Shown: one piece after another, positions 9,601 through 63,085 of the stretch
How the letters are laid out: each line of letters opens with the position of its first letter
How positions within the stretch are numbered: position 1 is the stretch's first letter
NCBI RefSeq assembly: GCF_040183065.1
Contig: NC_091119.1
Coordinates: 185,767,543 to 185,831,542, forward strand
Reading direction: 5' to 3'
Length of the DNA: 64,000 nucleotides
Origin: Periplaneta americana
Taxonomy: Eukaryota > Arthropoda > Insecta > Blattodea > Blattidae
The notes under the pieces: generated by a model
Told to the model about the DNA's origin: nothing
Databases searched by the model: none
What the model saw: only the letters and a program-made list of their open reading frames with translations
Translations under genes and position numbers: made by a program

Positions 9601-11035
9601 CTTTGAAATTGGTAATGATAGTTTCTCAGTGGTGAAATGAAATCAGTGAACTGGTATACCATTTTACAAGTAAAATAAATTATCATAAAGCAAGAGAAGC
9701 AGTAAATCTTGAGATTATTTGGTATGAATATCTGTGTGCTCAACAAGAACATTTCATTTCATTTATTGCAATTCATAATCCTTACATCAGCATTGCAGCT
9801 TTGAAATGTGAAACAAGTAGCAAAATACGATGAAAGAGTATTGGAACGGAGAAAAATTATCTCCGGCGCCGGGATTTGAACCTGGGTATTCAGCTCTACG
9901 TGCTGATGCTTTATCCACTAAGCCACACCGGATACCCACCCCGGTGTCGGACAGAATCATCTCAGATTAAGTTCCAACTCTTGGGTTCCCTCTAGTGGCT
10001 GCCCTCTGCACTACGTCATAGATGTCTATGAACGAGGACTGAAGTCCACACATGTGCTGAGGTGCACTCGTTATGAGTGACTAGTTGGCCGGGATCCGAC
10101 GGAATAAGCGCCATCTTAAATCACGAAGTGATTTACGCATATTATATATATTATTTTAATGTACCGAAGTACATATGATATTTCCATGCAGATAATCTGC
10201 GTCATCATACGATCAAAGAGTATTGGAACAGAGAAAAATTCTCTCCGGCACCGGGATTTGAACCTGGGTATTCAGCTCTACGTGCTGATGCTTTATCCAC
10301 TAAGCCACACCGGATACCCACCCCGGTGTCGGACAGAATCGTCTCAGATTAAGTTCCAACTCTTGGGTTCCCTCTAGTGGCTGCCCTCTGCACTACGTCA
10401 TAGATGTCTATGAACGAGGACTGAAGTCCACACATGTGCTGAGGTGCACTCGTTATGAGTGACTAGTTGGCCGGGATCCGACGGAATAAGCGCCATCTTA
10501 AATCACGAAGTGATTTACGCATATTATATATATTATTTTAATGTACCGAAGTACGTATGATATTTCCATGCAGATAATCTGCGTCATCATACGATCAAAA
10601 AGTATTGGAACGGAGAAAAATTCTCTCCGGCGCCGGGATTTGAACCCGGGTATTCAGCTCTACGTGCTGATGCTTTATCCACTAAGCCACACCGGATACC
10701 CACCCCAGCGTCGGACAGAATCGTCTCATAACGAGTGCACCTCAGCACATGTGTGGACTTCAGTCCTCGTTCATAGACATCTATGATGTAGTGCAGAGGG
10801 CGGCCACTAGAGGGAACCCAAGAGTTGGAACTTAATCTGAGACGATTCTGTCCGACGCTGGGGTGGGTATCTGGTATGGCTTAGTGGATAAAGCATCAGC
10901 ACATACAGCTGAATACCCGGGTTCAAATCCCGGCACCGGAGAGAATTTTTCTCCGTTCCAATACTCTTTCATCGTATGATGACGCAGAATATCTGCATGG
11001 AAATATCATATGTACTTCGGCACATTAAAATTATA

Positions 11036-11073
<38 letters not shown>

Positions 11074-12493
11074 TAGCAAAATTATACAAAAGAAATGCTG
11101 TGTCAGGGACAAACTGGCACGTAGAATACATCATTCAGTTTTGGGAATAAAACTACAGTAATGTTGGTTTGAATATTTCATTTTTGCTTCAGCTTACAAA
11201 TGGAGAGTATGGGTCTATCACAGCCTAATATATACAGTCACGAAGCTCAATACGTAGTAAATATGCATCCATAGATAGTTGCTAGACCTGCACAGTCTAT
11301 TGTTCCTAGTACCCTCATAAACTCAAGCTTCGTAACTGTATATACTAGACTGTGGGTCTATGATAAGGAAAGTATTTAATGAAGCACATACAATATTATA
11401 TTTTCTCTTGATATGAGTGAAATTCCGAAATTAATCCCAGCCCTCAAAAAATTTTTCACTATGGTTCACTCAGAGTGTATCCTACGTGTCTGAATCACTC
11501 TCAAATTGCAGAATTCTTGATTAGAAATCAAATGAGTGGTCAGACTGAGTGAGGCCGCATGGCATGGCTAATTTTATATGCAACTTTGGCATGATCTTGC
11601 TTGTAGTAGAGGTAAGTGGCGTTATCCATGCCGGTCACACAATTTACACTGATTTATGGCGTAACTACTAATAAATTGGCATTCGGCTGTGGCTTATAGT
11701 GTCGTTATAGTAACCATTTGAAATTGTGCTATTTTTTGTTTCATCACGGATCCCGGAACAGATACCCATACTCAATATAAGGAAAGATGTAATTTACATA
11801 AGAAATAATACATAATTAGAAATACGTAGTAATTCAGTTAATTAAATTTGTAAGCATAAGCAATTCATTGAGTAGAATGTATGAAAATAAAGAAATTTTG
11901 TTAATTCTGTTATACATTTTTTCTCTTTGCCCTTCAAAGCTGTGAAATAATTAGGCGGTATATTGAAGACTATTTAATACATGAACAATGAATAGTTTTT
12001 TTTAACAGCCGGGACTAAGAAAGAGTAGATGGAGATCTGATTTGTGTCTCACATTAAAATTAAGAATATTCTGATTATGGCTAGTACTTAAAAGTACCTA
12101 TGGTATTTTTTACAGGATATCTTTTTTTGAAAGATATTATTTTATAGTAATATCTGCATTGCCCCAGTAGAGTAGAATTTAAAAATACTTGTTATAAGAG
12201 AATGTGAGTCTTCTATGGTGATGTTGAGGCATGTTAAGAAAGCTTGAAACAATAAGCAACCCTTAATAAAATGCTGAACAACTTTGAACACATAATGCAA
12301 GAAATTATAATATTTTGCTGATGATTTAGCTTATTAGAATCATTTTAGGTTCTCTTTTACAAATATGATTATATGTTGACAAATTTTCTAGAGCTATTTT
12401 TATTAAATTTGAAGTTCAGCTATAGTGAAAGTTTATGACAAGAAAAATGTACAATCTTGCAAGCAGGTATTATTATTATTATTATTATTATTA

Positions 12494-15500: not shown

Positions 15501-18500
15501 CAAAATTCTTCAACACTTACATATTTTCGATGATCATGACGGCTATACCATTGAGCATCTTATCAGCAAAGGTAACAATTCCGTATACAAAGGCACCATT
15601 TTCCGTATGTGTACCAATCAGATCAGCTGTGATGCAGAGGCTGGTAACCATTGTGATAGAACTTCCTGCACCTGTTCATATTATGTCTAGCATCAGAGTT
15701 TTTTATACGAAGAAATATGAAAATTGATATTAATTGCACATATTACACTAATGGATTTTAAATAAATCTTTGATAGTCGGTTCTATTATAGGCTAATATT
15801 TAAAAGAATGATGTTTCGTTTCGACATGTCCAAAATAAAGTATCTTGGATAAAGTGTTGTTATGAAAATTGGAAGATGGATGAAAGATGGGTAGTAACAT
15901 AAGAAATGTTCGCCCAACAAATATAGAGACCCAGTGAGGGGTAGAACTCAAGTTTCCTTCTCTTTTTTCATCTTCACTCAAGTAACTAATCTTGTCAGCT
16001 TCTTTTGCTCCTGTGTAGCACTATGGGCAGTGGTGTCATTCAGCCAGTTCGCTCTGGTCTGCCCAAACCGCTTGTTAAATTTGTCTCAGTTCATAGAACC
16101 GCTTGTTAAATTTGTCTCAGTTCATAGAACCGCTTGTTAAATTTGTCTCAGTTCATAGAACCAGTTGTTAAAATGTCTAAATGGTTGGAGTATAAAAACC
16201 TTCTTTTTATAGAAAGAAAGAACATTAATTTAACACGAAATTCTGAAGTTTCTAATAGGCTATTGCAATAAACATATTCCAAAAATAAACGACATTACAA
16301 CTCGAAGTGATCATATTTATTATTACATTGTTGTTTCCTGTCCAAGTGTGCAGACAGTTAAGACAAAGAGTATGATATGCTTGAAAACTTGAAAGCCATC
16401 TGTGATAACTTTGGCAGTCGTCTATCCTTTCCCCTTACTTATGGCTTTTAAAGAAGCCGGTGGTTCATTGTCACCCTCACATAAGCCCGCTATCGGTCCC
16501 TATTCTGAGCAAGATTAATCCAATCTCTACAAACACATCCCACCTCCCTCAAATCCATTTTAATATTATCCTTCCATCTACGTCTCGGCCTCCCCAAAGG
16601 TCTTTTTCCTTCCAACCTCACAACTAACACTCTATATGCATTACTGGATTTGCCCGTACGTGCTACATGCCCTCCCCATCTCAAACGTCTGGATTTAATT
16701 TTCCTAATTATGTCGGATGAAGAATACAATGCGTGCAGTTCTGCATTGTGTGACTTTCTCCATTTTCCGGTAACTTCATCCCTCTTAGCCCCAATTATTT
16801 TCCTAAGCACTGTATTCTTAAACAGTCTTAACCTCTGTTCCTCTCTGAAAGTGAGAGCCCAAGTTTCACAACCATACAGAAGAACTGTTAATATAACTGT
16901 TGTATAAATTCTAACTTTCAGCCTTTTTGAAAACAGTCTGGATGACAAAAACTTTTCAACCGAATAATAACACACATTTCCTATATTTATTCTGTGTTTA
17001 ATTTCCTCCCGAGTGTCATTTATATTTGTTAATGTTGCTCCAAGATATTTGAATTTTTTCATCTCTTCAAAGAATAAATTTCGAATTTTTATTTTTCCAT
17101 TTCAATGTTTTGGTCACGAGACATAATCATATAGTTTGTCTTTTCGAGATTTACTTCCACACCTATCTCTTTACTTGCTTTAAGTAAAATTCCCTTGTTT
17201 TCTGTGGATTTTCTCCCAACATATTCACGTCATCCGCATAGACAAGCAGCTGATGTAGTCCATTCAATTCCAAACCCTCTCTGTTATCCTGGACTTTATT
17301 TATTATTGCATTATTTAATATTTTTATATTAGAATTATGAAATTTGCAATTTTATTAGTGGAGAGAACTGTTTATTAAAAAGTTAGAATGACTTCACTGA
17401 CTATGTGCATTAAGTTACTGTTCACCCAACAAATAGACTAGTTGAGGGTTTTTGGTGGTTTGAGAGGACAGAGTGTTGTTGTGAACAGGTTTTAGAAAGC
17501 AATAGAAAGAGAAGAAATTCGAACTGTGTGAGATGATACCAGTACCTATTTTAAAACAAACAGTGCTTCCTTGGGATTCAAAAACAACTAGGTGGTGGAC
17601 TATGACATATATCGTACAGTATAAATTAGTTTCAAATAAATGAGAGATTAATTTAAAATTAGATAATGACGTCCTTTATTTAAAGCAAATTATATTTGGT
17701 AAAAGTGTAATGTTTGTTACGTGAATGAGTGAATAATTTTTCCAGAATTTAAATTTACTTTGGAATATGTATGATAAGTACTTTGTTGTGTTAAATATTA
17801 ACGTACCTTGTTAACATGTTTCGACCTATTTTCGGTCATCTTCGGAACTGGTCGTTGTTGGTCTTGGCGCCTCTTGTTTCCTGTGTGGGTGCGTTCGTAG
17901 TGTAGAGTCAAAGAGTGTATGTGTTTTGAAATTGAGTTGTGTGTTGAGAATATCGTTGGGGTGTGTTTTCGTGTGTCTGCATATTTCATATGCTCAACAC
18001 ACAACTCAATTTCAAAACACATACACTCTTTGACTCTACACTACGAACGCACCCACACAGGAAACAAGAGGCGCCAAGACCAACAATTACCAGTTCCGAA
18101 GATGACCGAAAATAGGTCGAAACATGTTAACAAGGTACGTTAATATTTAACACAAGAAAGTACTTATCATACATATTCCAAAGTGATACAGTGTTAAAAG
18201 TTGTGTAATCAAGATGTATTTAAATTTAATTTGGAAATTACGTTTAAGATTAGAAATGTATTTTTTAAATAGAATATGTAATGAGAACAATCTTAAAATA
18301 TCTACAGCAAAATAGAAAATCATGTAATTGCAGGGGAATTGTCCAATAAGGGCCAAAATATTTATAGAAAATGGAACAATGAAACAAGTAGAACATTTTA
18401 ATTACCTGGATGTAATAGAACATACGGCTAAGATAAGGATATATTAAAAGTAAATTACAGAGATATCAGACAATGGATAGAATAATCAGAAGAACTTTTA

Positions 18501-21500
18501 AAAGCAGGAAGAGACACACAGATATGATTTTATAAAGTAATGGTTATCCCTTCCCTATTATATAGAAGTGAATCATGGGTACCAACACAAAGGGATAAAT
18601 CTCATATACAGGTAACAGAAATTAAATTCTTAAGATCTATAAACGGATGCACTAAACTAGATAAAATACACAATGAAGATATTAGAGAAGAATTGAGAAT
18701 TTATGCATTTGGGGATAAGGCAGAGGAACATACACAAAATTAGAGAGATCACTTAGAAAGAATGAACTCTACAAGACTCCCAGAAATAATAATGTTATAG
18801 TCTATATACCAACAGGAAAGAGAGAATCTGGAAGACTGAAGAAGAGATGGAGTTGAAATGGGGCTGTAAGAGATCACAAGGCCTAATACGCGAAAGAAAG
18901 AAAGAGAAGAAGACATTTAAGTTTAGCAAAGCATAGTTCAATAAATAGAGGAAGAATATTAAATATGTTATCATTTATGGCAATTTTCTAACATGTAGCA
19001 TGAACTTTAACACATAAGATATTATTACATATAAAAATATGTAAGTACCATACATACCTAGGAACACTGCTACACCATAAATTGAAAATGTAAGAAGTTG
19101 TGGTATCATTCCAAAACGTAACCACAGGCAACCAGAGATGCTTATAATAGCTCCGAATAAATAGCTGAGCTGAAAAGAAATTGTTTTGCTTTAGAATTGA
19201 AACTCGCCCAAACTTTAGTTTAAAATTATTTAATTCTTGTGTGATTTAGTTGCATGTATTACATGTATAAAGATATTTCTGTAAAATAAAGTGAGATTTT
19301 GTGAAATACAATCATTTACCCATTACTGGTACTTCGAGTATATTTTAAGGCAGAATAAGAAATGAGTGCATTCCTCAAATTTGCTGAAAGTTAGGTACTC
19401 TTGAGAAAACAATGATCCCAAACTTATGCATTTATTAAGGAATAACTTAAATGATAAAAATATTTTATATGAATATTTACATTTGAACCAATAGCCGACA
19501 TTGAACAAACCTAATGGCTAAGAACACTTGTTCCCAGTATGGATTGCACAAATCTCTCTCCAAGACAAAGTGTTATGGTGCATGCATGTCATAGATTTTG
19601 TTTGCATGGCAAAATTTTCACTTCACATCTCTTTTAAGGGGTTAGGAACAGCTTAAAGGAGTAAAATTTTGGAAATATTCAACATTTTTTTCCTCCATTA
19701 CTCTATCTTGTACAATAATGGAAATTAGTATGTGTAAAACACTGTCCTTCTGCTATAAACATATTTTTACGATTAAAAAAATTATTTTATTTATTTATTT
19801 TTTTTTCAAAATTCAAAGTTCACTGTGCAGTGATGAAGCATTTCCCTCATAACTTAAAAAGTATCCAACATTCTGTGATGAAATTTTTTGTGTGTGTTTA
19901 TGCATATCATATCTACAATATGATGCAAAATCACTTCTCTACCTTTGATAGTTTGTCTGATAAAAAATAAATTCATTAAAAAATGGTCAAATATCTAACA
20001 CAAAATAAAAAAAAAATGTTGTTTATTAAGGAATGTATTTGGAAGTTGATATTCTAAACATGAGTTTCAGCAATAAAATAAAAGAGAGAGAACATGAAAA
20101 AGTTAACAAGTTTATGAGTTGTGAGGGAAACGCTTCATCGCTGCACAGTGAACTATAAATAAAAAAAAAAATAATAAATATTTTTTTAAATCTTAAAAAT
20201 ATTTTTTTCATATAGGAGAAGGACAGTGTTTTACACATACCAATTTTCATTATTGTACAAGATACAGTAAAGGAGGAAAAAAATGTTGAGTATTTCCAAA
20301 AATTTTACTGCTGTAAGCTGTACTTAACCCCTTAATAAATAAGATTACCAGAATATTTTCTGATGGCTAAATTTGGACACTTCGAAAACAAGATTTAACA
20401 AGATTAAATATTGTAGAGATGAGATATTTTTAATAGGAGAACAGCTGGATATGCTTTGTTAAACCACAAAAGAAATTAAAACGTTTTACAAGAATTAGGA
20501 ATGCATTTATTTTAGAAATAATCGGAAATTACAAGTCTGTAATTGTTCTTGTTTTCATTCTGTTAATCTTCTATTCTTCCAGAGAATGTTGTATCAGATG
20601 CATCAGTTGACTTGCATAAATAATTGAAGGATCTTGAGGAATTGAAATTGTATGTTTCTAAATTGCAAACAATTTCGGACAAAAGGGACCATGCCTTAAA
20701 CCTGAGACTGTCTTGGAAAATTGTTTTTAATTGAATGACTTTGACTCATTGTGTGAATTTATATTTGTAAAATGTTATTTAGAGGTTGGAAGAATCCTAT
20801 TTGTATGGTGTCCTCATTTTTATGTTTCAAGATATGGTAACCATAGCAAAGAATTTTAATGAAATATCATTATTGGGCACATGTCAGCTATTGGAGCTCC
20901 ACCACAGTCTAGTATATACAGTCACGAAGCTCAATATGTAGTAAATATGCATCCATAGGTAGTTGCTAACCACTAGAATCGCTAATATCGCCACATTACA
21001 GACGCGAAATATTACCGGCACAGTCTATTGTTCCTAGCACCCTCACAACTCAAGTTTCGTGACTGTATTACTAGACTGTGGCTTCACCTTGTTTGGTATT
21101 TTTTTTACAGAGAAACTTACCTTGCTGCCATAATAATTATTAAAATACTTGATTCCTATGGATGCAGTGAAGGAAGACAGATAGCACACTAGCGGCACAG
21201 TGGCTATCAGTTCTGTGCCCTTGTTGAGGCTCTCGTTGAGGTAGAGTGGCATGTACACGAGGCTTATGGTGAGGAACAGGCGGCTCGTAACATAGAGAAA
21301 TGCGACTTGGAAGAGAGTCGGCGAGTGGAAGTAGCTCAGAATTCTTCTAGTTTCAGGAACGTCGTGCTCTATTATCAGAGATTGCATGGCTTGTGTGTTC
21401 ACCTTGCGCAAACCAATGTGGAAAAGACTGTTTGTTATTATGCCTATCACGATCCCAATTATAACAACATCCTGTAGAAATAAGGACACTGTTAAAAGGC

Positions 21501-24500
21501 ATCATCATCGTCCTCAAATGTTGGACTTCAGCAAACAAATTCTTTGGTTGGTGGGAAAAGGCCAAGTCAAAAAAAAATAATTTTTCAGGAGAGACTTTCT
21601 TTTTAATTTACTATTAACTGAATATAAGTATAATAATGAAATTCACGTATGTTAAAGTAAGACCCCTTTCAATTTAAAATACAAGAAAGTTTATTATTTA
21701 AAATTTAGAAAAAAATACTAGACATGTGATTAGGTACAACACAAAAATCGACTTTTTTTGACTGATGTGCCTTTTCCCGCCGACCAAAGAACTAATATCG
21801 TTTGTCAAACTTTCATTTGTGGCTTAAAATTAATATTCTTTTTCCATGAAGACTAATTTAATGCTTTTTATCGAACACATTACACGAAATAATACAAAAG
21901 GCTATTGAAATGTACACTACTGATCAAAAGTTTTCGATCACCTATCACAATTATGGATTTGTGGTTAAAACAGGGATTTAGTTTTGAATATTCTATCATA
22001 TCATAATGCTAGAGAGAGAAAATATTTATTTTGTTGGTCTATTTAATTTGTCTGATGTGTTTATACATTGAAATAAAGTATATAGTTGTTTTCATAGCTG
22101 ATCGAAAACTTTTGACTGGTAGTGTATATAATATAAATAATAACCCGTGGTGCTACAGCCCATGAAGGGCCTAGACCGACCAGCCGGCTGCTGGCCTCAT
22201 GCCCACATGCCGAAGCAGAGATGGACGATCATCCAACCAGAATGGAGGTATCGTGTGGTTAGCACGATGATCCCCCCCAGCTGTTATAGCTGGTATTCGC
22301 AACCGGATTTCACTACCTATCGTAGCTCCCCAAGTGCATCACGATACTGGGTGGGCACCGGTCCCATATACTGGCCGAAATTTCATGAGAAAATTTCTTC
22401 CCCCATGAGGACTCGAACCAGCGCGCATTCCGTAACGCGAGTCCTAGGCAGATATAATATAAAAGTGAAGTAAATTATAGAGACAATAATTAAATATCAT
22501 TTATCAGTTTTGTTCACTTTATATTGTCCACAGTTCATTTTCATTTGATACACTGACATTTCGTCCACTTTTATTTTGTCCATAAAGGATTTGTCCACTT
22601 TCAATAATATTGGGTTCAAAAATATTTTGTCCATTTTTTCTAAAGTCCATTTAAAATTTTTTCCATAGAACTAAATACAAGACAAGTTGAATTGCAGTTA
22701 ATAAAAAACATTTTCATCGTTATTAATGTGCTTTCTTATGATTCCCAAGATAGTGAAATCCAATTTGATCTATGGTACGTGCCAGAAGTCTTAATGAGGA
22801 ATCAAATTTATACATTACAATTTCGAAGACATTATAATGACATATCCTTCGTCTATAGGTAAGGATAAAATAGTTTATAACAATTACATGTCAGTTCCAT
22901 TCCTTTAGCAAAAATGGAGACAATCATATTCGCGGAGCGAAAATCATGACATATGCAATGTCTATTGTGTGACAAACAGGAATATAAATGTTCGTATGCA
23001 TGTATTCAAGGGGTTAGATACAGCTTAAAGGAGTAAAATTGTGGAAATATTCAACATTTTTTTCCTCCAGTACTGTATCTTGTACAATAATGAAAATTAG
23101 TATGTGTAAAACACTGTCCTCCTTCTATAAATGATAAAAATATTTTGTCGATTTAAAAAAAATATTTATATGTCTTTTGAAAATTCAAAATTTACTGTGC
23201 AGTGATGAAGCATTTCCCTCATAACTCAGAGTATCCAACATTCTGCGATGAAATTTTTTGTGTGTATTTATGGGTGTCATATCTACAATATGATGCAAAA
23301 TCACTCCTCTACCTTTGATGGATTGTCTGATAAAAAATAGATTCATTTAAAAAGTGGTCAAATATCAGTATTTTCTTCTGACACAAAAATAAAAAAAATA
23401 TTATTTATTAAGGAATGTAGTTGAAAGAGCATAATATTGTAAGCATGAGTTTCAGCAATAAAATAAAAGAGAGAGGACATGAAAAAGTTAACAAGTTTAC
23501 GAATTATGAGGGAAACACTTCATCACTGCACAGTGAAAATGTATATATAAAGATATTTTTTTAAATCGTAAAAATATTTTTTTTTATATAGCAGAAGGAC
23601 AGTATTTTACACATACAAATTTTCATTATTATACAAGATACAGTAATGGAAGGAAAAAATATTGAATATTTACAAAAATTTTACTGCTGTAAGCTGTACC
23701 TAACCCCTTAAGGAACGTAAGCACACACATGCTGGGAATAGAGCTGAAGTTGGTGCGAAAAACGCTATGGCAGGAATCCAAAGAAGGGCTTAACAACAAC
23801 CAAATTAATCTCCCGCAGCCATAATAAGGAAAGGAAACAATGTAGCCTATTGATGTAGGATATTATTGTATGCTACACATAGGGCCTGTTTAAAGCCAGA
23901 ACCATGCATTGGAAAAGTGAGTTGAAGATTGCTTATAAAACTATTGTGAGGCTTGTTCTTTGTTATAGTTCTGGAACATGGAAATTGACAAAGAGAAGTA
24001 TGCTGAATAAATTTGAAAGAAAGATTTTTACGAAACATAAGGCCTATTTGGGCTAGAATTAGATGGAGATATAAGGAGAATCAGATATAATAAAGAAATT
24101 CTTATATATGTATGAAATGGAAAGTTACAACATTTATTAAGATTCAAAGGTTGCAATAGATTGGTCGTTTGTTAGAACGGATGAAGATCGCATACCCAAA
24201 CACTGTATGGCAAAAGAAGAATAGGAAAACATAAGGCCAGATGGCAAGATGCACTGAAAGAGATTCTAAAAGCCTATTACATGTTAAGACATGGAAAATA
24301 AAAGTCAAAGAACGGAATTTCTGGAAGTGACACATTGAAGATGCCAAGGCTCTTAATTTGGGTTGTAGCGCCAATAAAAAAGTGATATTGATGTGACATA
24401 TAAAAAATTTGTGTTGATCATAAAGAAATAACTAAATATGAGACACAAAGAGTACCGCGAATATGAAATTGAAGTAATCATTTTTTTAAGAGTTATTTAC

Positions 24501-27500: not shown

Positions 27501-30500
27501 AAAAAGATATCAGATAATTAGAAAGCAGTAGGATATATGGATTTTATGCAGAGATAAAGAGGAAGGCAGAAAATAGGAAAAACTGGGTAATGTTGGTTTT
27601 GCAGTGAAAGACCTGCCCTTGGGCAGACAACTATGAATGAATGAATGAATGAATTATGTCACTTCCTCCATGGAACAGAAACATTTAATTTCTGTTACTT
27701 CAAATCCGTGTTTGTTTTGTACATCTTTTGTGTAGTGTCAAAATTTCGTTGCCATTTTGTATTGTAAATTTGGTGCTTGCATCATATAATAACTGTGCTT
27801 ATTGATGTTTATGTATAAGAAAAAAATTAATATTCAACTACTGAAGAAAAATTTTATAAACATAAAGCGAAGCACATGAAAGTAGGGGAGAGAGGGGATA
27901 CAGTGGACATGGGGATACAATGGACATATGCAAATTTCCCTCTGTATGACCTTCCATGTTGTCATCAATGACCAGAGATATTCATTTGTTCATATCTTAT
28001 GAAAGTACAGTGTTTTTGACCAGAAGTACAAAGATTATTTTCGAACAGCAGCATTTTCCAGTTTTTCGTAGTTTTGATGTAAATCTTGAGGTAAGTGCTA
28101 TTCTCTATTAAATAGTTTCTTTTCAAATCATAGTGCAAGTTATAACGTTGTATATTTGTGGATATTATGAGAATTCATTTCATGTATAATACTTTAGTGA
28201 GGTTGAAATCCTTTGTGAAAGAAAAGGAAAAAAGTACCAAACCAGAACATGGGGATATATTGGACAGTGATGTCCAATGTATCCCCTTAAATTGATATTC
28301 TTTTTTATATATTTTTTCAATATGTCTACATTAGATCAATGAACTATTTACTTTATTTGTCTGCAGATGCCTCTAGTCTACACTAGAAAAACAGATCGTG
28401 AGTTTTCTGAGGCGGATATTAAAGCAGCAGTTGATGATGTATTACATAATAATATATCTCTGTGAGCTTCTGCAGAACAGCATGGTGTCAAAAAATCCCG
28501 CTTGGCAAAGTATGTGAAGAAATCTTGGGAGGTTGGGTTTGATTCAATGAATTTCAAGTCCAATTTTAAGAATCTTCAAGTAATTCCAGGTCACATGGAA
28601 GAAGCTCTTGCTGATTGTTTGTTGTCATGTTCAGCTATGTTTTATGGGCTGACACCAAAACAAACAAGACGATTGGCTTTCGAATATGCTAAAAAGAATG
28701 AACTGATAACAATACCTGCATCTTGGGAAGCAAATGAGGCTGGTTTGGATTGGTTCTCAGCATTTTTGAAAAGACACCCAGCACTCTCAATCAGAACACC
28801 AGAAGCTACAAGTCTAGCCAGAATGCAGGCATTCAATAGAGCAACAGTGGGCCAATTCTTTGATAAGCTGGACATTGTGCTGCAGAGACATAAATTCATG
28901 CCGCATCAGATTTTAAATTTAGACGAGACTGGCTTGAACACTGTACCACCTGTGGTAAAAGTAATCGCAAAAAAAGGTGAAAAACAGGTAGGACAAGTGA
29001 CTTCCAGGGAGCTGGGTGAACTTACGACACAAGTTGGTATCATTTGCGCAAATGGGAATGCCGCATCAGATTTTCAATTTAGACGAGACTGGCTTGAACA
29101 CTGTACCACCTGTGGTAAAAGTAATCGCAAAAAAAGGTGAAAAACAGGTAGGACAAGTGACTTCCAAGGAGCGGGGTGAACTTACGACACAAGTTGGTAT
29201 CATTTGCGCAAATGGGAATGCCTTACCTCCTGTGTGGATATTCCCCCGCGTTCGCTTTGACAAAGCACGCATAATGGCTGGTGCACCTACAGGGGCTTTG
29301 GGTCTTGTCCACAAGTCAGGTTGGATGACAGCGGAAAATTTCTTGAACGTTTTGATATTTTTTTAAAGAAAATGTACGTTGTTCAAATGGAAATCCGGTG
29401 TTGCTGATCATGGATAATCATGAGTCCCACCTGAGTGTAGAAGGCCTAGGGAAATGGCATTACCATCTTGACCCTCCCACCACACACATCCAATAAGCTC
29501 CAGCCCCTGGACCGCTGCGTGTTTGGTCCTTTCAAGAAATTCTTCAATGAAGCAGTTAACGCCTAGCACCTTAGTCATCCAAATGAAAGTGTGACAATCT
29601 TTAATTACCACGAATGGGTGCAACTGCATGGGATAGAGCAGCAATCCCAGAAAACATTAAATCGGGATTTAAATCTTGTGGAATTTCTCCATTTGACCGA
29701 AATATATTCTCCGATGAACATTTCTTGTCGTTTGTAGTATCAGATCGTCCACCTCCAGTGCTTTTGAACTATCAAAGTTCTCCAGGATCAATTGCAGAAG
29801 AACAAGCAGGATCTAAAGTAGAAGATGCTATAATTACTTCAGTTGTCAGCTCTAGAACATTAGAAACTTCAACATCTTCGACAACCGAAAATGCATATGT
29901 CAGTCCTGAAGAAGTAAGGCCCTTTCCAAAAGCACCACCTCGCAAATTGTCCTGTCGTGGGCGAAAAAGGGGTCGTTGTATGATAGCAACAGATTCTCCA
30001 GAAAAAAATGAGATCGCAGAATGGAAGTGTAAAAACTCAAAGGGAAAACAGGCAGAGAAGAGGAGAGTTCGTCAGAGGTCTTCATCATCTTTAGAGGAAG
30101 TTTGTGAGTATACCTCTGACTCAGATCAAGACTCACATGAAAATGAAGTTGAACCCATTTACTCCCTACATTCCGGCGATTTTGTAATTGTCGGAGTTAG
30201 TGGCAAAAACACTTCAAGAAATTATGTAGCTCAAATTGTTAATCGAGCCGTGGATGGATATGATGTGAAATTTTTTAAACCTCAGATCGCTTCTAATCGG
30301 TTCATGGAAACTGATGAGCCAGTATCATTTGTGTCATACGAGGAGACTGTGCTGAAATTACCTGAACCTATCAAAGACAACAAAAAGCATTTTGAAAATA
30401 TGACCTATTTTGACTTCGATTTCATGCCATTTTGTATCCAATAATGTATTGTATTGATTGTACATATGTGAATTTAGTTGCAGTTTGTTAGTATTATTGT

Positions 30501-33500
30501 ATTTGAAATTTAGAGACCATGTATAATCATTTTTTTCTGTACACAAAATATTTTGATTTCTGTCCAATGTATCCCCATATCTGGGGATACTCTGGACAAA
30601 GTGTATTTCTTCAAATATATTCAAATGATTTCAGTTTTACTGATATGAAAATGATTAAAATTTTTAATGACAGCCAGACGTCCAACAAATCAAAACCAGG
30701 TGGAAAGAATCTTTTTAATTAATAAGCTTAGTGCACAAAAATTTAATAAGATAAAATGTCCAACGTATCCCCTTGCTCCCCTACAACTTCGGTACAAGGT
30801 GAGGGACGTACCTGATGGCAGTGAGTTCTGCGCGACCATGTTGAGTCGGTGTGAGATCAGGAATCATTGCTAGATGTGAGATTTGAACTACAGCCCAGGC
30901 ACCTTGGAACACGATAATGAGAGCTGCGTAGTAAACAGCCATCAACCAGGTCGGGGAACTCGAAGCACTATTACTGCACCCAGGGCATGGTGCGAATATG
31001 AGAGGAAATGAAACGAGCACCAATATAGAACCTGCGAACATTGTAATTGAATACATGTCATAACATTAGTAAAGTCTCTTTGTAGTTGGTAGCGATTTTT
31101 ATCCATTTTTGCCATTCTTTGTTTTTCTCTCCCTCTCCCTCCCCTCCCCCCCTCTGTTAGCCTATTTTTTTTTGTCATAAAAGTTAATTGAAATTATACA
31201 GGGTGGAAATGAAATAATCCTGTAGATTTTCCGAGCGAGTAGCACATGTTGTATGTAACAAAAAAGTGTTATACCATATTGGTGTAAAATTCATAGTTTT
31301 TTTCAGAAAAAAATGTTATTTCCCAAATGTTCAACACCCTCTTATTCGGTAACTATTGCGAGTAGAATCGTGATTTTTGTCCATATCGATAGAAAATCTA
31401 ATAAAGAATCATTATACATCTTACATATTATTTTAATGTACCGAAGTACATATGATATTTTCATGCAGATATTCTGCGTCATCATGCAATGAAAGAGTAA
31501 TGGAACAGAGAAAAATTCTCTCCGGCGCCGGGATTTGAACCCGGGTTTTCAGCTCTACGTGCTGATGCTTTATCCACTAAGCCACACCGGATACCACCCC
31601 GGCGTCGGGCAGAATCGTCTCAGATTAAGCTCCAACTCTTGGGTTCCCTCTAGTGGCCGCCCTCTGCACTACATCATAGATGTCTATGAACGTAGGACCG
31701 AAGTCCACACATGTGCTGAGGTGCACTCGTTATGAGTGACTAGTTGGCCGGGATCCGACGGAATAAGCGTCGTCTTAAATCACGAAGTGATTTACGCATA
31801 TCATATATATTATTTTAATGTACCGAAGTACATATGATATTTTCATGCAGATATTCTGCGCCATCATGCGATGAAAGAGTAATGGAACGGAGAAAAATTC
31901 TCTCCGGCTGAAAATCCGGGTTCAAATCCCGGCGCCGGAGAGAATTTTTCTCCGTTCCATTACTCTTTCATCGCATTATACATCTTGATTACACAACGTT
32001 TAACACTGTATCACTTCGGAATATGTATGATAAGTCTTTCTTGTGTTAAATTTTAACGTACCTTGTTAATACGTTTCGAACTATTTTGGGTCATCTTCAG
32101 AAACAACTCAATTTCAAAACACATACACTCTTTGACTCTACACTACGAACGCACCCACACAGGGAACAAGAGGCGCTAACACCAACAACGACCAGTTCTG
32201 AAGACGACCCAAAATAGGTCGAAGCATATTAACAAGGTACGTTAAAATTTAGCACAAGAAAGACTTATCATACATATTCCAAAGAATCATTTATCTCTTT
32301 GGCGTATTTCAATCGCGTGGAGGGTTTTCGTGTAAATTTAATTTAAAAACACTAATTTGAAGGCGCTGACCACGGCATGTTCTACTACAGGAAGGAATAT
32401 TGGTGGAGGGGAGCGTGACGTCAGAGATCCGTTCGGTCTCGAGCACGGCGTGATATGTCAGTGTTAACGGTGGACATCACATTGTCAAAATGCCGCGAAG
32501 ATGCCGTGTTCCGGGTTGCAAATGTAATTATACATTGATCGACACCTGTGGAGTAACGGTTAGTGCATCTAGCCGCGAAACCAGGTGGTCCGGGTTCGAT
32601 TCCCTGTCGGGGCAAGTTACCTGGTTGAGGTTTTTCCAGGGTTTTCCCTCAACCCAATAAGAGCATTATCACCTTCATCTCATTCAGACGCTAAATAACT
32701 TGCGATGTTGATAAAGCGTCGTAAAATAACCTACTAAAATAAAAAAAATAAATTATATATTGAAAGGTGTTGTTAGTGAATATGTGACGTGTTTTATTAT
32801 TCCCAAATACAAAACATTATGTAACAAGTGGGTGAGAAATATTAAAGAAAAGACTGGAGTCATACCTGGATTCCAAAGGTGTGGAAAGGGTGTATGTGTA
32901 TGATAGGCTAAAACTGAAAATTGGCTCCACTCCTACAATTTTTGGAGGCTTACCAGCATACCTTTTGAAAAAGCTGCTGGTAAAAATAAAGACTACTGAA
33001 GAAAGGGCTGTCGACGCTGAAAAGAGAAAATTAATTGCTGAACATGAGTCAAGTAAAAATGCTGCTGAAGAAGACACATCCTTCACCAATCGATATGGCG
33101 TCATTAAATAACCATTAAAAGAAAGAATACCACATCATTGGAACACTACACGAAACATGAAATCATACACAGTTCTATTCTTATTCGCTTACGATCCTCA
33201 CATTCTTAATTTGAAATGTTAATTTCTTCATCATAAGATGTATAAGCTGATAAACAGTTTGCCTTAACACAGAGCAAAGTCTGGCCAAAACAGATGTATA
33301 GGCGCTTATTTATATTCTCACTTGTCAGTAGTTAAGGTTTGCAGTGAAAGACCTGCCCTTGGACAGGAAACTGTGAAGCAATGTCATACAGTCCAATCTA
33401 TGAACCAATGTAATATTTTTCTGCAGTATATTTTAATTTACAAGCAACCTTTGCAAACGTCAAATTATAGTTACGGTATTAAACATGATGACTTTGATAC

Positions 33501-53239: not shown

Positions 53240-53825
53240 TGATCTAAGGTGAAAATATCACAGTACTACTGAACAATAGCTACTCCCTCATCAAAATCTT
53301 TCTAGGTAGGATTTACAGTGGTAGGTTTTCCATGACAAGAATCCTTCAAAGTTCCATAACCTTTCCAGGTAGTACCAAACCATTTTTATAGCCATATCTA
53401 TTGTGCTTTCCCCTAATAAATTGTTTCAAACCATGGCGTCGTTAGTATGACACCATTGAATCATTAATCTTGCGGTTTTCCATATGTTTGTGGCATATTG
53501 TAAAGTCTTATCATTGAGTGTATTATACAGGGGACTGACCTTAGCCAACTTGTCATATTTAGTTCATCTTTTTCACAAACGTTAATACTTATCATGATAA
53601 ATTCAAAGCAGTTTCTCAGAACATACGTCTTCGTAGTACTGGGACATAAGCTCTCAATAAAAGTAAGCCAGTAAAACAATACAGTTCGTTAGTGGTAACA
53701 TCACCTTCTCTATTCCGCAAGGCTGTATACCGATTGGATTTATCCAATACGAGAAAAATTACATCTTCATCAAAGGATAAGATGCGTTGGTTTAATTTCC
53801 AAACGAGGCCTTTGAACATTATTAA
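53240..53825 (-). pseudogene. piggyBac-like transposase remnant
   Basis: Minus strand in order with frameshifts: LDKSNRYTALRNREGDVTTN ELYCFTGLLLLRAY (start of the piggyBac DDE domain), RNCFEFIMISINVCEKDELN, DKLAKVSPLYNTLNDKTLQY, and after a gap DSMV then RRHGLKQFIRGKHNRYGYKN (the DESM...GRHSLKQFIRGKPIRFGYK region with the first catalytic Asp). It stops abruptly where the LINE at 53.83 kb begins. Confidence 0.75.
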
Positions 53826-55135
53826 TATGTGTTGGAAAAATGGACATTTACCAGAAGAATGGAATATTGCATTGATATGCCCGATTTTTAAAAAGGGAGA
53901 TCGAACTAAATGTGATAATTATAGGGGAATCAATCTTTTGAATTCAGGTTATAAGATTTATGCAAAAATTATAACACAAAGAATTGCTCCAATCTCAGAA
54001 ACTATACTGCATGATTCACAAAATGGATTTAGGAAAGGGCGTTCCTGCAATGATTGTATCTTCACGATAACACAACTTATGGAGAAACGACGAGAATATA
54101 ACTTACCAACTCTACTAGCTTTTATAGATTATGTAAAAGCTTTTGATAAAGTTAAAAGAAATTTTCCATGGGAAATAATGATTAAAATGGTTTTCCTCAA
54201 CATCTTATAAGAGTAATACAAAGTATGTATACAAATACGAAGTTTAAATTAGAGAAATTCATAGAAGAGGATAATTAATTAGAGATTAATTTAGGAGTAC
54301 GACAGGGGTGTCCACTATCGCCTACCCTATTTAATATATATATATTAATGACGCAGTTGTACGATGGGAGACTATGCTTAAAACACATTTTAAAATAAAA
54401 GGGAGAAACATTGATACACTGTTGTTTACTGACCACCAGATCTTAATTGCAGATTCGGAAGATAATTTACAAAGGGCCATACATGAATTAAATAGTATTA
54501 CAAGTGAATATAATCTTCAAATCTCATATGAAAAAACGAAAATAATGGCTCTTAAAGGAAGAGATCTGTTAAGAGCAAAAATTTGCATAAATAATAAGCC
54601 CATCCAACAACAAAGTGATTTTAATTATCTTGGTTACATTGTGTCATATACCGGCAATAGAGATGTGCAAAATAAATTAAACAGATTCCAAACACTATGT
54701 GGTACAATAAAAAGACCTTGTAATTGAGCAACACTGTTAAAACTTTACAAAGTAATGGCGATCCCAACCTTGCTTTATGGGTGTGAAAGTTGGGGCTTGA
54801 CTATCTCACAACAGAAGAAAATAGAGGCTGCTGAGATGAAATTTTTGAGACAGGTGGCAGGTTATAAACTCATAGACAAAAAGAGGAATGAAGATATTAG
54901 AAAGGAATTGGAAATTCAGAGTCTAAATGAAACGATCATTGAATACAGACAAAGATGGCAAGATCATATACAAAGAATGGATGAAGATCGTATACCACAA
55001 ATAATGAATAAGTATAAACCTGTAGGTAGAAGAAATGTCCGCAGGCCACGGATGAGATGGTCGGATCAGTTTTCTTGAAGACGGAACGAGCCACAAGGCT
55101 TATTCCGTGATGAAGATGATGATGATGATAAAAGA
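53826..55135 (+). mobile_element. LINE family B (RTE-like) reverse transcriptase, best copy
   Basis: Plus strand: INMCWKNGHLPEEWNIALIC, FKKGDRTKCDNYRGINLL, DSQNGFRKGRSCNDCIFTIT, LLAFIDYVKAFDKV (RT motif A), a frameshift near 54207, [17 protein letters not shown] (motif B), then RNIDTLLFTDHQILIADSED where the catalytic F-A-D-D is F-T-D-H. C-terminus IPTLLYGCESWGLTISQQKK to HIQRMDEDRIPQIM. Ends with a (GAT)n tail at 55110-55130. The mutated catalytic dyad and frameshifts make it inactive; 5' end missing. Confidence 0.85.
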
Positions 55136-60125: not shown

Positions 60126-61419
60126 CGAGGCGCGTCCAGAAAGTAAGTTTCCCGATTTTTCCCCTTGAAAGTAAACGTAATTAGCCGTGTCAATTGCGCA
60201 TGCGTAACAGATCTATGACATATCAATCATATGCCAGCCGGACAGGTCCCGCCTGGTGCCAGTAGCGTGGCAGCAGTGGTCCGAAATGGAAGCTCTTATT
60301 CCTTCTCCCGCCGCCTGCGAGGTTCGGTCGGTGATAAAGTTCTTTAATGCACAAAGCAATGCGCCAATTGAAATTCATCGGCAGCTCTGTCAGGTCCATG
60401 GGCCGAACATCAGGAGTAAGCAGATGGTGCGTCGCTGGTGTAGGCAGTTTTCCGAAGATCGTCAAAGTGTCCACGATGAAGAGCGAAGTGGGCGACCGTC
60501 CCTCATCAATGATGATCGTGTTGAGCTGGAGCGGCAGTGCATCATGGAGAACCGTCGCTTCACGATTACGGAGCTGAGCAGCCATTTTCCGCAGATATCG
60601 CGATCCTTGTTGCATCGCTGTTCAAAAAAGTGTGTGCCAGGTGGGTGCCGAAAAACCTGACACCCGAACACAAAATGCAACGTTTAGGAGCAGCACTGAC
60701 ATTTCTGCAACGGTATCACGATGACGGCGACGTGTTCCTCGACAGGATCGTCACGGGCGATGAGACTTGGATTTCGCACTTCACCCCGGAAACCAAGCAG
60801 CAGTCAATGCATTGGCGGCATAGTGTATCTCCGGTCAGGACGAAATTCAAAGAGACGCTGTCGGTACGGAAAGTGATGTGCACGGTGTTCTGGGACAGGA
60901 AGGGCATTCTGCTCGTTGACTTCCTTCCAAGAGGTGAAACAGTGAACGCTGACTGTTACTGTGAAACACTGCGAAAATTGCGACGTGCCATTCAAAATAA
61001 GAGGCGTGGAATGCTTACTGCAGGTGTTGTGCTCCTCCATGACAATGCTCGTCCACATACGGCTCGGCGCACAGCAGCTGTTTTGGCGGAATTTGGCTGG
61101 GAGTTGTTTGATCATTCACCCTCCAGTCCTGATCTTGCTCCCAGCGATTTTCACGTTTTCTTGCACCTCAAGAAATTCCTGTCCTCCGGTGAGCGTTTTG
61201 GCAACGACGAAGAGCCACACACGCTGGTTCCGTTCACAGGCGGCAGAGTTCTACGACAGAGGGATACAAAAGTTGATCCCACGATACAAGTGTCAATTCT
61301 GATGGTGGCTATGTTGAAAAATAGCTGAAACATTGCTGTACCTGTTGCCAATAAATTTTTTCCTGAAAGTGTGTGTTCTTTTTTTTTAATAGGAAAACTT
61401 ACTTTCTGGATGCGCCTCG
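60126..61419 (+). mobile_element. Near full-length mariner transposon
   Basis: 1294 bp with TIRs CGAGGCGCGTCCAGAAAGTA and inverted CGAGGCGCATCCAGAAAGTA (one mismatch) continuing agttt, flanked by TA (60124-60125, 61420-61421). Length and architecture are standard for mariner. GC content is clearly higher than the surroundings, suggesting recent arrival. Confidence 0.9.
60286..61325 (+). pseudogene. Mariner transposase with three frameshifts
   Basis: MEALIPSPAACEVRSVIKFF opens the HTH_48 domain; RWCRQFSEDRQSVHDEERSG then RPS links to the second HTH. A frameshift at about 60600-60625 leads to FKKVCARWVPKNLTPEHKMQ. DDE residues: [39 protein letters not shown], the last two 34 residues apart as in DD34D mariners. 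A second frameshift at about 61212 (FGNDEE to TRWFRSQAAEFYDRGIQKLI) and a third at about 61290 near the C-terminus. The start matches the usual mariner N-terminus. All three catalytic Asp are kept. Confidence 0.85.
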
Positions 61420-61955: not shown

Positions 61956-62164
61956 GCCGTGGAGAAAAGGCCATGGTGCGCCGAGCCACTGTGTAAGCTG
62001 CAACGTGCATAGCACCTATGGAGGGAGGCGGACAACCGAAGGGGAAGTTAATGTTTAGGACGTGTAACGAAGAAAGAATTGAACAAGAAAACATAGGACA
62101 TTATCACAACCTAAAATTAACTGTCTTCAGAATTAGTTTCATTTTGGAGATGCCGATAAGCTCA

Positions 62165-63085
62165 CTGTATTATAATATCAATTTTTGTTTTCCACCTGTG
62201 CTTATCTTAATATTTGGATTTATATTAACGTTTTCGACACTCGGTGTGTGTCATCTTCAGATATGGGGTCTATGTCATTGTGTGTTGTGAAGACCTAGCT
62301 TCTTAATTATGTTGTGGTTTGTTCACTTGTGTATGACCTTTCATGATTTCTTAATTTGGCTAAAATTACTATAAGCAGTGTGTGATTGTAATTGAGCCCG
62401 CCATTCTAGTCTCAGCCATGCACCACATAGGAACACTCCAACATCAGCTAAAATCACACGCATGGCCATACTAGACAGCGGACTCAACAGAAAATAGCTT
62501 GTATTATATACGTCTAAGTACTCAATAACAGCATCCACGATTCACAGCAGTCAACTTGAACAACATCAAAAACTCCAACATACAATTCTATGGAAAATCA
62601 GTGAAAGTGCGTCAAAAAGACAGTTTTTACCAAGAACAGTAAAAACAACCCAATTTTTAACGATATAACAGGCCAACACAGCCAACCATATATGTGATAA
62701 AGTGATATAGTGTATACAGTGTTTTACAGTGTTTTTATAGTGTATATATTTTACTTGTTTATATTTATGTGTCATAACAATGGTTTTAATATAATTTTCT
62801 ATTGTCCTATATGGGTTTTCAAAAGATAGAATTTAACAGAATCATAACAACCAACCACACACTGCGTATAGTAATTTTGGCCAAATTAAGAAATCATGAA
62901 AGGTCATACACAAGTGAACAACCCACAACATAATTAAGAAGCTAGGTCTTCGCAACACACAATGACATAGACCCCATATCTGAAGATGACACACACCGAG
63001 TGTCGAAAACGTTAATATAAATCCAAATATTAAGATAAGCACAGGTGGAAAACAAAAATTGATATTATAATGTCTTCAGAATGTC
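62165..63085. mobile_element. Fold-back element with CTGAAGATGACAC arms
   Basis: Arms 62165-62390 and 62855-63085 are inverted: ttttcgacactcggtgtgtg against cacacaccgagtgtcgaaaa, and tttcatgatttcttaatttg against caaattaagaaatcatgaaa. In the sense of the right arm each reads CTGAAGATGACACAC then GTGTCGAAAACG, the same CTGAAGATGAC-stem-GTCGAAA design as the elements at 17.8 and 32.0 kb. The 465-bp spacer has no recognised ORF. Confidence 0.6.

Follow-up and report, generated by a model that had tools for sequence, protein, structure and literature searches.

Head-to-head, multi-unit insertions of a 382-nt tRNA-bearing unit in Periplaneta americana, probably moved by Penelope-like element (PLE) machinery

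The insert at 9815-11082 (L1) in the window, our term for the whole 64-kb stretch of Periplaneta americana DNA that was analysed, consists of 382-bp units and an inverted copy between one perfect 12-bp duplication, and raises the question of what kind of element arrives in this form. The original prediction was a tRNA-like SINE that entered in one event from a concatemeric or rolling template, with a strand switch at CTCA microhomology. The single duplication was confirmed, with the left copy of the target site duplication (TSD; AAGTAGCAAAAT, 9815-9826) identical to the right copy (11071-11082) at 12/12 positions. By chance, an exact repeat of at least 12 bp at two random breakpoints was seen in 2 of 20,000 random simulations. 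Inside it, on the minus strand, lie full unit A2 (9828-10209, 382 nt), whose outer end is site 1 (CATCG), full unit A1 (10210-10591, 382 nt), which differs from A2 in 6/383 aligned columns, and partial unit P (10592-10728, 137 nt), which closes this direct arm on its inner side. Read on the tRNA strand, the layout is P (137 nt), A1 (382) and A2 (382), closing with CTCTTTCATCG beside one TSD copy. A second arm of 250 nt on the plus strand (10725-10974) stands head to head with the direct arm and reaches site 1; it is followed by a plus-strand tail from site 1 to site 2 (10975-11031, border approximate), a (TA)n tract at the site-2 end (11032-11070, or 11032-11071 by tandem repeat finder) and the other TSD copy. 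The predicted CTCA microhomology was found at the inversion junction as a 4-nt overlap of the arms (10725-10728).

ARAGORN identified tRNA-Tyr-like cloverleaves on the minus strand at 9861-9932, 10243-10314 and 10625-10696 (Rfam tRNA 55.3, 51.8 and 60.8 bits, respectively). Their starts are exactly 382 bp apart, as expected from the predicted spacing, but they belong to two full units and a 137-nt partial one, not to three full units. The predicted inverted copy was also present: its arm begins at 10725 and carries a tRNA-like cloverleaf on the plus strand at 10870-10941 (ARAGORN; Rfam tRNA 47.5 bits).

BLAST matches to the 382-nt unit in the 64-kb window were limited to L1 and a second insert, L2 (31410-31986), every other match having an E value of at least 0.24. 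Exact patterns for the unit gave 0 matches in viral, bacterial and archaeal contigs, a result without bearing on further copies. L2, which had been predicted at 31.4 kb as a paired locus of the same period and design, indeed has a 382-nt unit, an inversion and a 13-bp TSD (CATTATACATCTT, 31410-31422 and 31974-31986, 13/13 identical). One arm, on the minus strand, consists of a 40-nt partial unit (31869-31908), full unit B (31487-31868, 382 nt; tRNA-like cloverleaf at 31520-31591, Rfam tRNA 61.5 bits) and the tail from site 1 to site 2 (31423-31486). It is followed by a 67-nt inverted arm on the plus strand (31907-31973), which ends at site 1 and overlaps the first arm by 2 nt (GC) at the join. 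The inner breakpoints of L2 fall within the tRNA-like part. The tail of another insertion, Y1, is interrupted by L2; a second copy of the Y1 family, Y2, has its tail intact. When the L2 flanks were joined with one TSD copy and compared with the intact Y2 tail, 117/126 positions were identical with a single 1-nt gap away from the join. To the left of the join the aligned stretch extends only 9 nt; beyond it comes the Y1 TSD, AAAGAATCATT, whose second copy is at 32281-32291. By this match, L2 is a single clean insertion. The proposed single event per locus is supported by the one perfect TSD at each and, for L2, also by the empty-site match.

Multi-unit structure with inversion was seen in both loci of the window, and the outer ends of L1 coincide with those of L2, at two positions in the unit that are separated by about 60 nt on the tRNA strand. 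Oriented alike, both begin at site 2 (ATTAAAATAATAT, then the TA tract in L1) and finish at site 1; on the RNA-sense circle, site 2 is about 60 nt downstream of site 1. The inner junctions are unlike, with an overlap of 4 nt in L1 versus 2 nt in L2. The shared outer end points imply that each insert is composed of two head-to-head arms, one of which is longer by the tail. Such fixed ends in both loci fit two priming events better than a strand switch.

Variants among the units were used to examine the template. A1 and A2 have five states in common (columns 15, 196, 211, 266 and 328) that are missing in the inverted arm and L2. Two of these (266 and 328) are missing in P, which has T268 in common with the inverted arm and G379 in common with A1, and which differs at 6/137 positions from A1, 7/137 from A2 and 7/137 from the inverted arm. 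These differences indicate that the two L1 arms had different units, or different RNAs, as templates and that the direct arm was not rolled round one circle. A template longer than one unit, the concatemer-like part of the original prediction, is thus supported; a rolling template in the form of a single monomer circle is not supported, given the differences among P, A1 and A2. Of the proposed strand switch, the microhomology junction stands, but a switch by one growing strand is not supported, given the different variants carried by the L1 arms. Snap-back of the growing strand was considered for L1 and is unlikely: P is no closer to the inverted arm than to A1 or A2, and G379 is found in A1 and not in the arm. 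The L2 arms show 0/37 differences, so snap-back cannot be judged from that locus.

The tRNA-like part occupies columns 278-349 of the 382, and site 1 comes after column 382. Five cloverleaves scored 47.5-61.5 bits against Rfam tRNA, and A and B boxes are present, as checked in three full units. The tRNA-like part adjoins none of the four outer ends of L1 and L2, and a T5 run lies 3' of it in 7/7 copies of that stretch. T5 is also the sole run of at least four T in 3/3 full units tested, and a run of this type would be expected to stop pol III. Judged on sequence, from the tRNA position and T5, the unit would have neither the 5' tRNA head nor the whole-unit pol III transcript of a tRNA SINE, and the SINE label was not upheld.

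Three further inserts in the window resemble L1 and L2, giving five head-to-head inserts of three families, each with a one-sided tail and a TSD. The tails of X, Y1 and Y2 measure 33-36 nt and their TSDs 11-12 bp. X (62122-63082) has a 12-bp TSD (TGTCTTCAGAAT, 62122-62133 and 63071-63082), a 35-nt tail (62134-62168) and 220-nt arms (62169-62388 and 62852-63071) that are 98% alike and separated by 463 nt. This inter-arm stretch gave no Rfam hit reaching the gathering threshold, ORFs that overlap X from within do not exceed 97 aa, and X may be a deleted or non-autonomous copy. Y1 (31403-32291) has an 11-bp TSD (31403-31413 and 32281-32291), a tail of ~36 nt interrupted by L2 and arms 93% alike. 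Y2 (17747-18228) has an 11-bp TSD (ATTTAAATTTA at both ends), 197-nt arms 98% alike (to 17953 and 17988-18184) and a 33-nt tail (18185-18217). Y-family arms are nearly palindromic. X and Y have only 14-15-nt matches in common, and the unit showed no sequence match at E 1 to either.

X and Y carry the motif CTGAAGAYGA..GTCGAA, which resembles the hammerhead motif of PLEs. Three exact matches were found in the window (two in X, at 62980-63007 on the plus strand and 62233-62260 on the minus strand, and one in Y1) versus none in 100 shuffles. Y2 has a one-change form, CCGAAGATGAC, in both arms; such forms also occur elsewhere in the window and none lies in L1 or L2. X and Y are called PLE-like here from their anatomy and this motif, not from protein. 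The distance from motif end to site 1 is 63 nt in X and 62-63 nt in Y2, and the unit stretch at the corresponding position lies within the tRNA-like part. A tRNA-like cloverleaf followed by T5 therefore stands where X and Y carry the hammerhead-like motif, which makes the unit a poor SINE. The tRNA-like part may, speculatively, serve RNA processing or protein binding in the ribozyme's stead.

The window was also scanned for head-to-head pairs with this anatomy. The first form of the scan flagged L1, L2 and X. A stricter form flagged 2 of 14 inverted pairs (X and L2) versus 9 of 2,800 random placements, and misses L1, whose TA tract is longer than the scan permits, Y1, which L2 interrupts, and Y2, whose two-letter TSD was filtered out. 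The remaining inverted pairs had no TSD in the scan and may thus be of other kinds. Among the inverted pairs, those at 19634-20335, 20115-23228 and 23008-23709 are related, about 225 nt, with ends like AAGGGGTTAG and no TSD found by the scan; they are possibly one inverted-repeat element family.

No hammerhead motif was found in the unit (L1, L2) by Rfam, our own descriptor or patterns, the descriptor having been run without a positive control and with a stem rule that would probably miss the X motif. Rfam did not report the X motif either, so its silence on the unit is weak evidence. By patterns and descriptor, the unit does not show the one hammerhead per unit expected of a retrozyme. The sequence TGATGA..GGAAA beside site 1 was considered as a decayed hammerhead and rejected, since it lacks core residue C3 and folds locally no better than shuffled sequence (z -0.01).

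Of the 29 listed ORFs, 10 were compared with Pfam, and no PLE protein was seen among them. An autonomous PLE has an ORF with reverse transcriptase and GIY-YIG endonuclease; the unit, at 382 nt, is too short for such an ORF and is therefore non-autonomous at most. Among the scanned ORFs, RVT_1 was found only at 53650-54727, in a reverse transcriptase split over two ORFs that both match, presumably a LINE. Other features recorded in the window were a transposase fragment at 60525-61328 (Pfam Transposase_1), which is mariner-type, and a 160-bp tandem duplication (98%) at 28898-29222 within a long reading frame; ORF 28466-29140 had no Pfam match.

We consider it probable that the 382-nt unit is a non-autonomous, tRNA-bearing retroelement and that PLE machinery moves it, using RNA that spans more than one unit. 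From the observed ends, arms, TSDs, junctions, variants and L2 empty-site match we infer an enzyme, an RNA and an order of steps. A tandem genomic copy would give rise to a transcript longer than one unit, and a PLE protein would cut both target strands, the cuts being offset by about 12 nt. The two 3' ends exposed in this way would prime cDNA synthesis at internal positions of the RNA, one of them at site 1 (CATCG|YATGATG) and the other at site 2, ~60 nt further 3'. Both cDNAs would extend towards the RNA 5' side and be joined head to head through 2-4 nt of microhomology, and the product would have a TSD, one tailed and one tailless arm, more than one unit and one inversion.

This proposal draws on two copies of the unit in one 64-kb window. 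In its favour, the outer ends coincide in two independent insertions, and both show head-to-head arms in one TSD with one arm longer by a fixed stretch. The TSDs are 12 and 13 bp, the same anatomy is seen in X, Y1 and Y2, two families unrelated to the unit in sequence, and the L1 arms differ in variants, as expected of two cDNAs from different template stretches. Against it, no PLE protein was seen in the 10 ORFs scanned; the unit has no hammerhead motif and no sequence common to X or Y; its tail of ~60 nt exceeds the published 30-40 and its TSDs of 12-13 bp exceed the 8-10 bp given in PMC3846280; and the (TA)n tract of L1 resembles a SINE or LINE tail.

That tract also speaks for LINE-driven twin priming. 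Twin priming is a LINE mechanism; here a LINE would prime on a tandem SINE-like RNA at site 2, its AT-rich 3' end, while the second target strand primes inside, giving the inversion. LINE relics are present in the window, and the site-1 end shares AT (L1) or ATG (L2) with the flank, so that microhomology priming is possible. With 40 AT positions in the unit and 12 CAT in the L2 unit, we estimate the chance of hitting the same place twice at roughly 1 in 12 to 1 in 40, which is not very low. The second end is nevertheless at the same point in 2/2 loci, the template was multi-unit in both, the tRNA is not 5'-terminal, and X, Y1 and Y2 have the same fixed-tail anatomy; we regard twin priming as unlikely.

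Rearrangement after insertion, in which a simple copy was later duplicated and inverted in place, appears quite improbable for the inserts as a whole, since the same ends and design recur at two loci with perfect TSDs and L2 fits its empty site at one TSD. Exchange would also require a prior direct repeat and would yield no inversion. The similarity of A1 and A2, together with G379 in both P and A1, does fit unequal exchange inside the L1 array, and one full L1 unit may stem from such a later exchange or duplication. If A1 arose in this way, the direct L1 arm would originally have held ~1.36 units, a length similar to that in L2 (1.27 units). A later local duplication that also copied flanks had been named in advance as the competing case; one unit may be a later duplicate, but no flank was copied in the L1 array. 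The least probable source, to our minds, is a retrozyme-like circular RNA, with hammerhead-less unit circles copied round repeatedly by some reverse transcriptase. Unit size, the tandem arrangement with no tail separating the units, GC of 45-47% and a unit RNA fold better than 99/100 shuffles (z -2.99) would suit a circle, while units of one arm differ at diagnostic sites, no ribozyme was found in the unit, and a circle alone does not account for the inversion and two ends.

A wider reading of PLE-driven movement is tentative, and we hold it possible rather than probable: that a SINE-sized, ribozyme-less class of elements lives off PLE machinery, a tRNA domain replacing the hammerhead, either as a substrate of RNase P and tRNase Z or as a binding site for the PLE protein. 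If this is true, PLEs move non-autonomous elements in trans as routine.

Comparison with known systems places the unit between several of them. In Cassandra retroelements the internal pol III gene is a 5S gene rather than a tRNA. These elements are LTR-type but likewise non-coding, with tandem arrays and an internal pol III gene (PMC7215508). Blattella Sbg1-Sbg9 are tRNA-derived SINEs, the dimeric Sbg9 being two different SINEs fused (PMC9191728). The unit resembles them in its tRNA with A and B boxes, TSD and small size, and in the AT tract at one L1 end; unlike them, its inserts have a tRNA that is not 5'-terminal, T5 behind it, and several units with an inversion. Metazoan non-LTR retrozymes are non-coding tandem units of 150-450 bp with GC below 50% and, where present, TSDs of more than 4 bp (PMC7229834). 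The unit agrees in all of these respects; it differs in its tRNA-like domain and in that no hammerhead was found in it. The main text of PMC7229834 does not contain the word "inverted" and so does not describe head-to-head anatomy in that word. It suggests PLEs as retrozyme movers; similarly, according to a review, metazoan retrozymes have no conserved motif betraying their mover, the likely candidates being PLEs and Terminons (PMC7761336). A non-coding unit with the PLE two-start-site signature at its insert ends would be a marker of the mover, countable in any assembly.

PLEs consist of head-to-head inverted pLTRs, with an optional 31-bp tail on one and TSDs of 8-10 bp, and one Penelope family moved an unrelated sequence in trans (PMC3846280). 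Titles and abstract openings found, chiefly in open-access literature, name no tRNA-bearing or SINE-like passenger of PLEs. In the anole PLE, there are two internal start sites, the interval between them being the tail; both target strands are cut and extended, and an RNA of several copies was proposed (PMC11167929). L1 and L2 share with A. vaga Pen2a and anole PAc the inverted head-to-head repeats, one-sided tail, single TSD and partial tandem copies, and a further parallel in PAc is that synthesis starts at two internal sites and extends both strands of the target. The unit differs from both in its lack of an ORF and hammerhead motif, its tRNA-like domain and its tail of ~60 versus 30-40 nt. 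In vitro insertion by the anole PLE was independent of hammerhead cleavage (PMC11167929), which makes a hammerhead-less passenger plausible. The hammerhead's role in PLEs is called unknown in PMC7761336, and it could be tested with natural elements that have or lack the hammerhead, were these moved by one and the same machinery.
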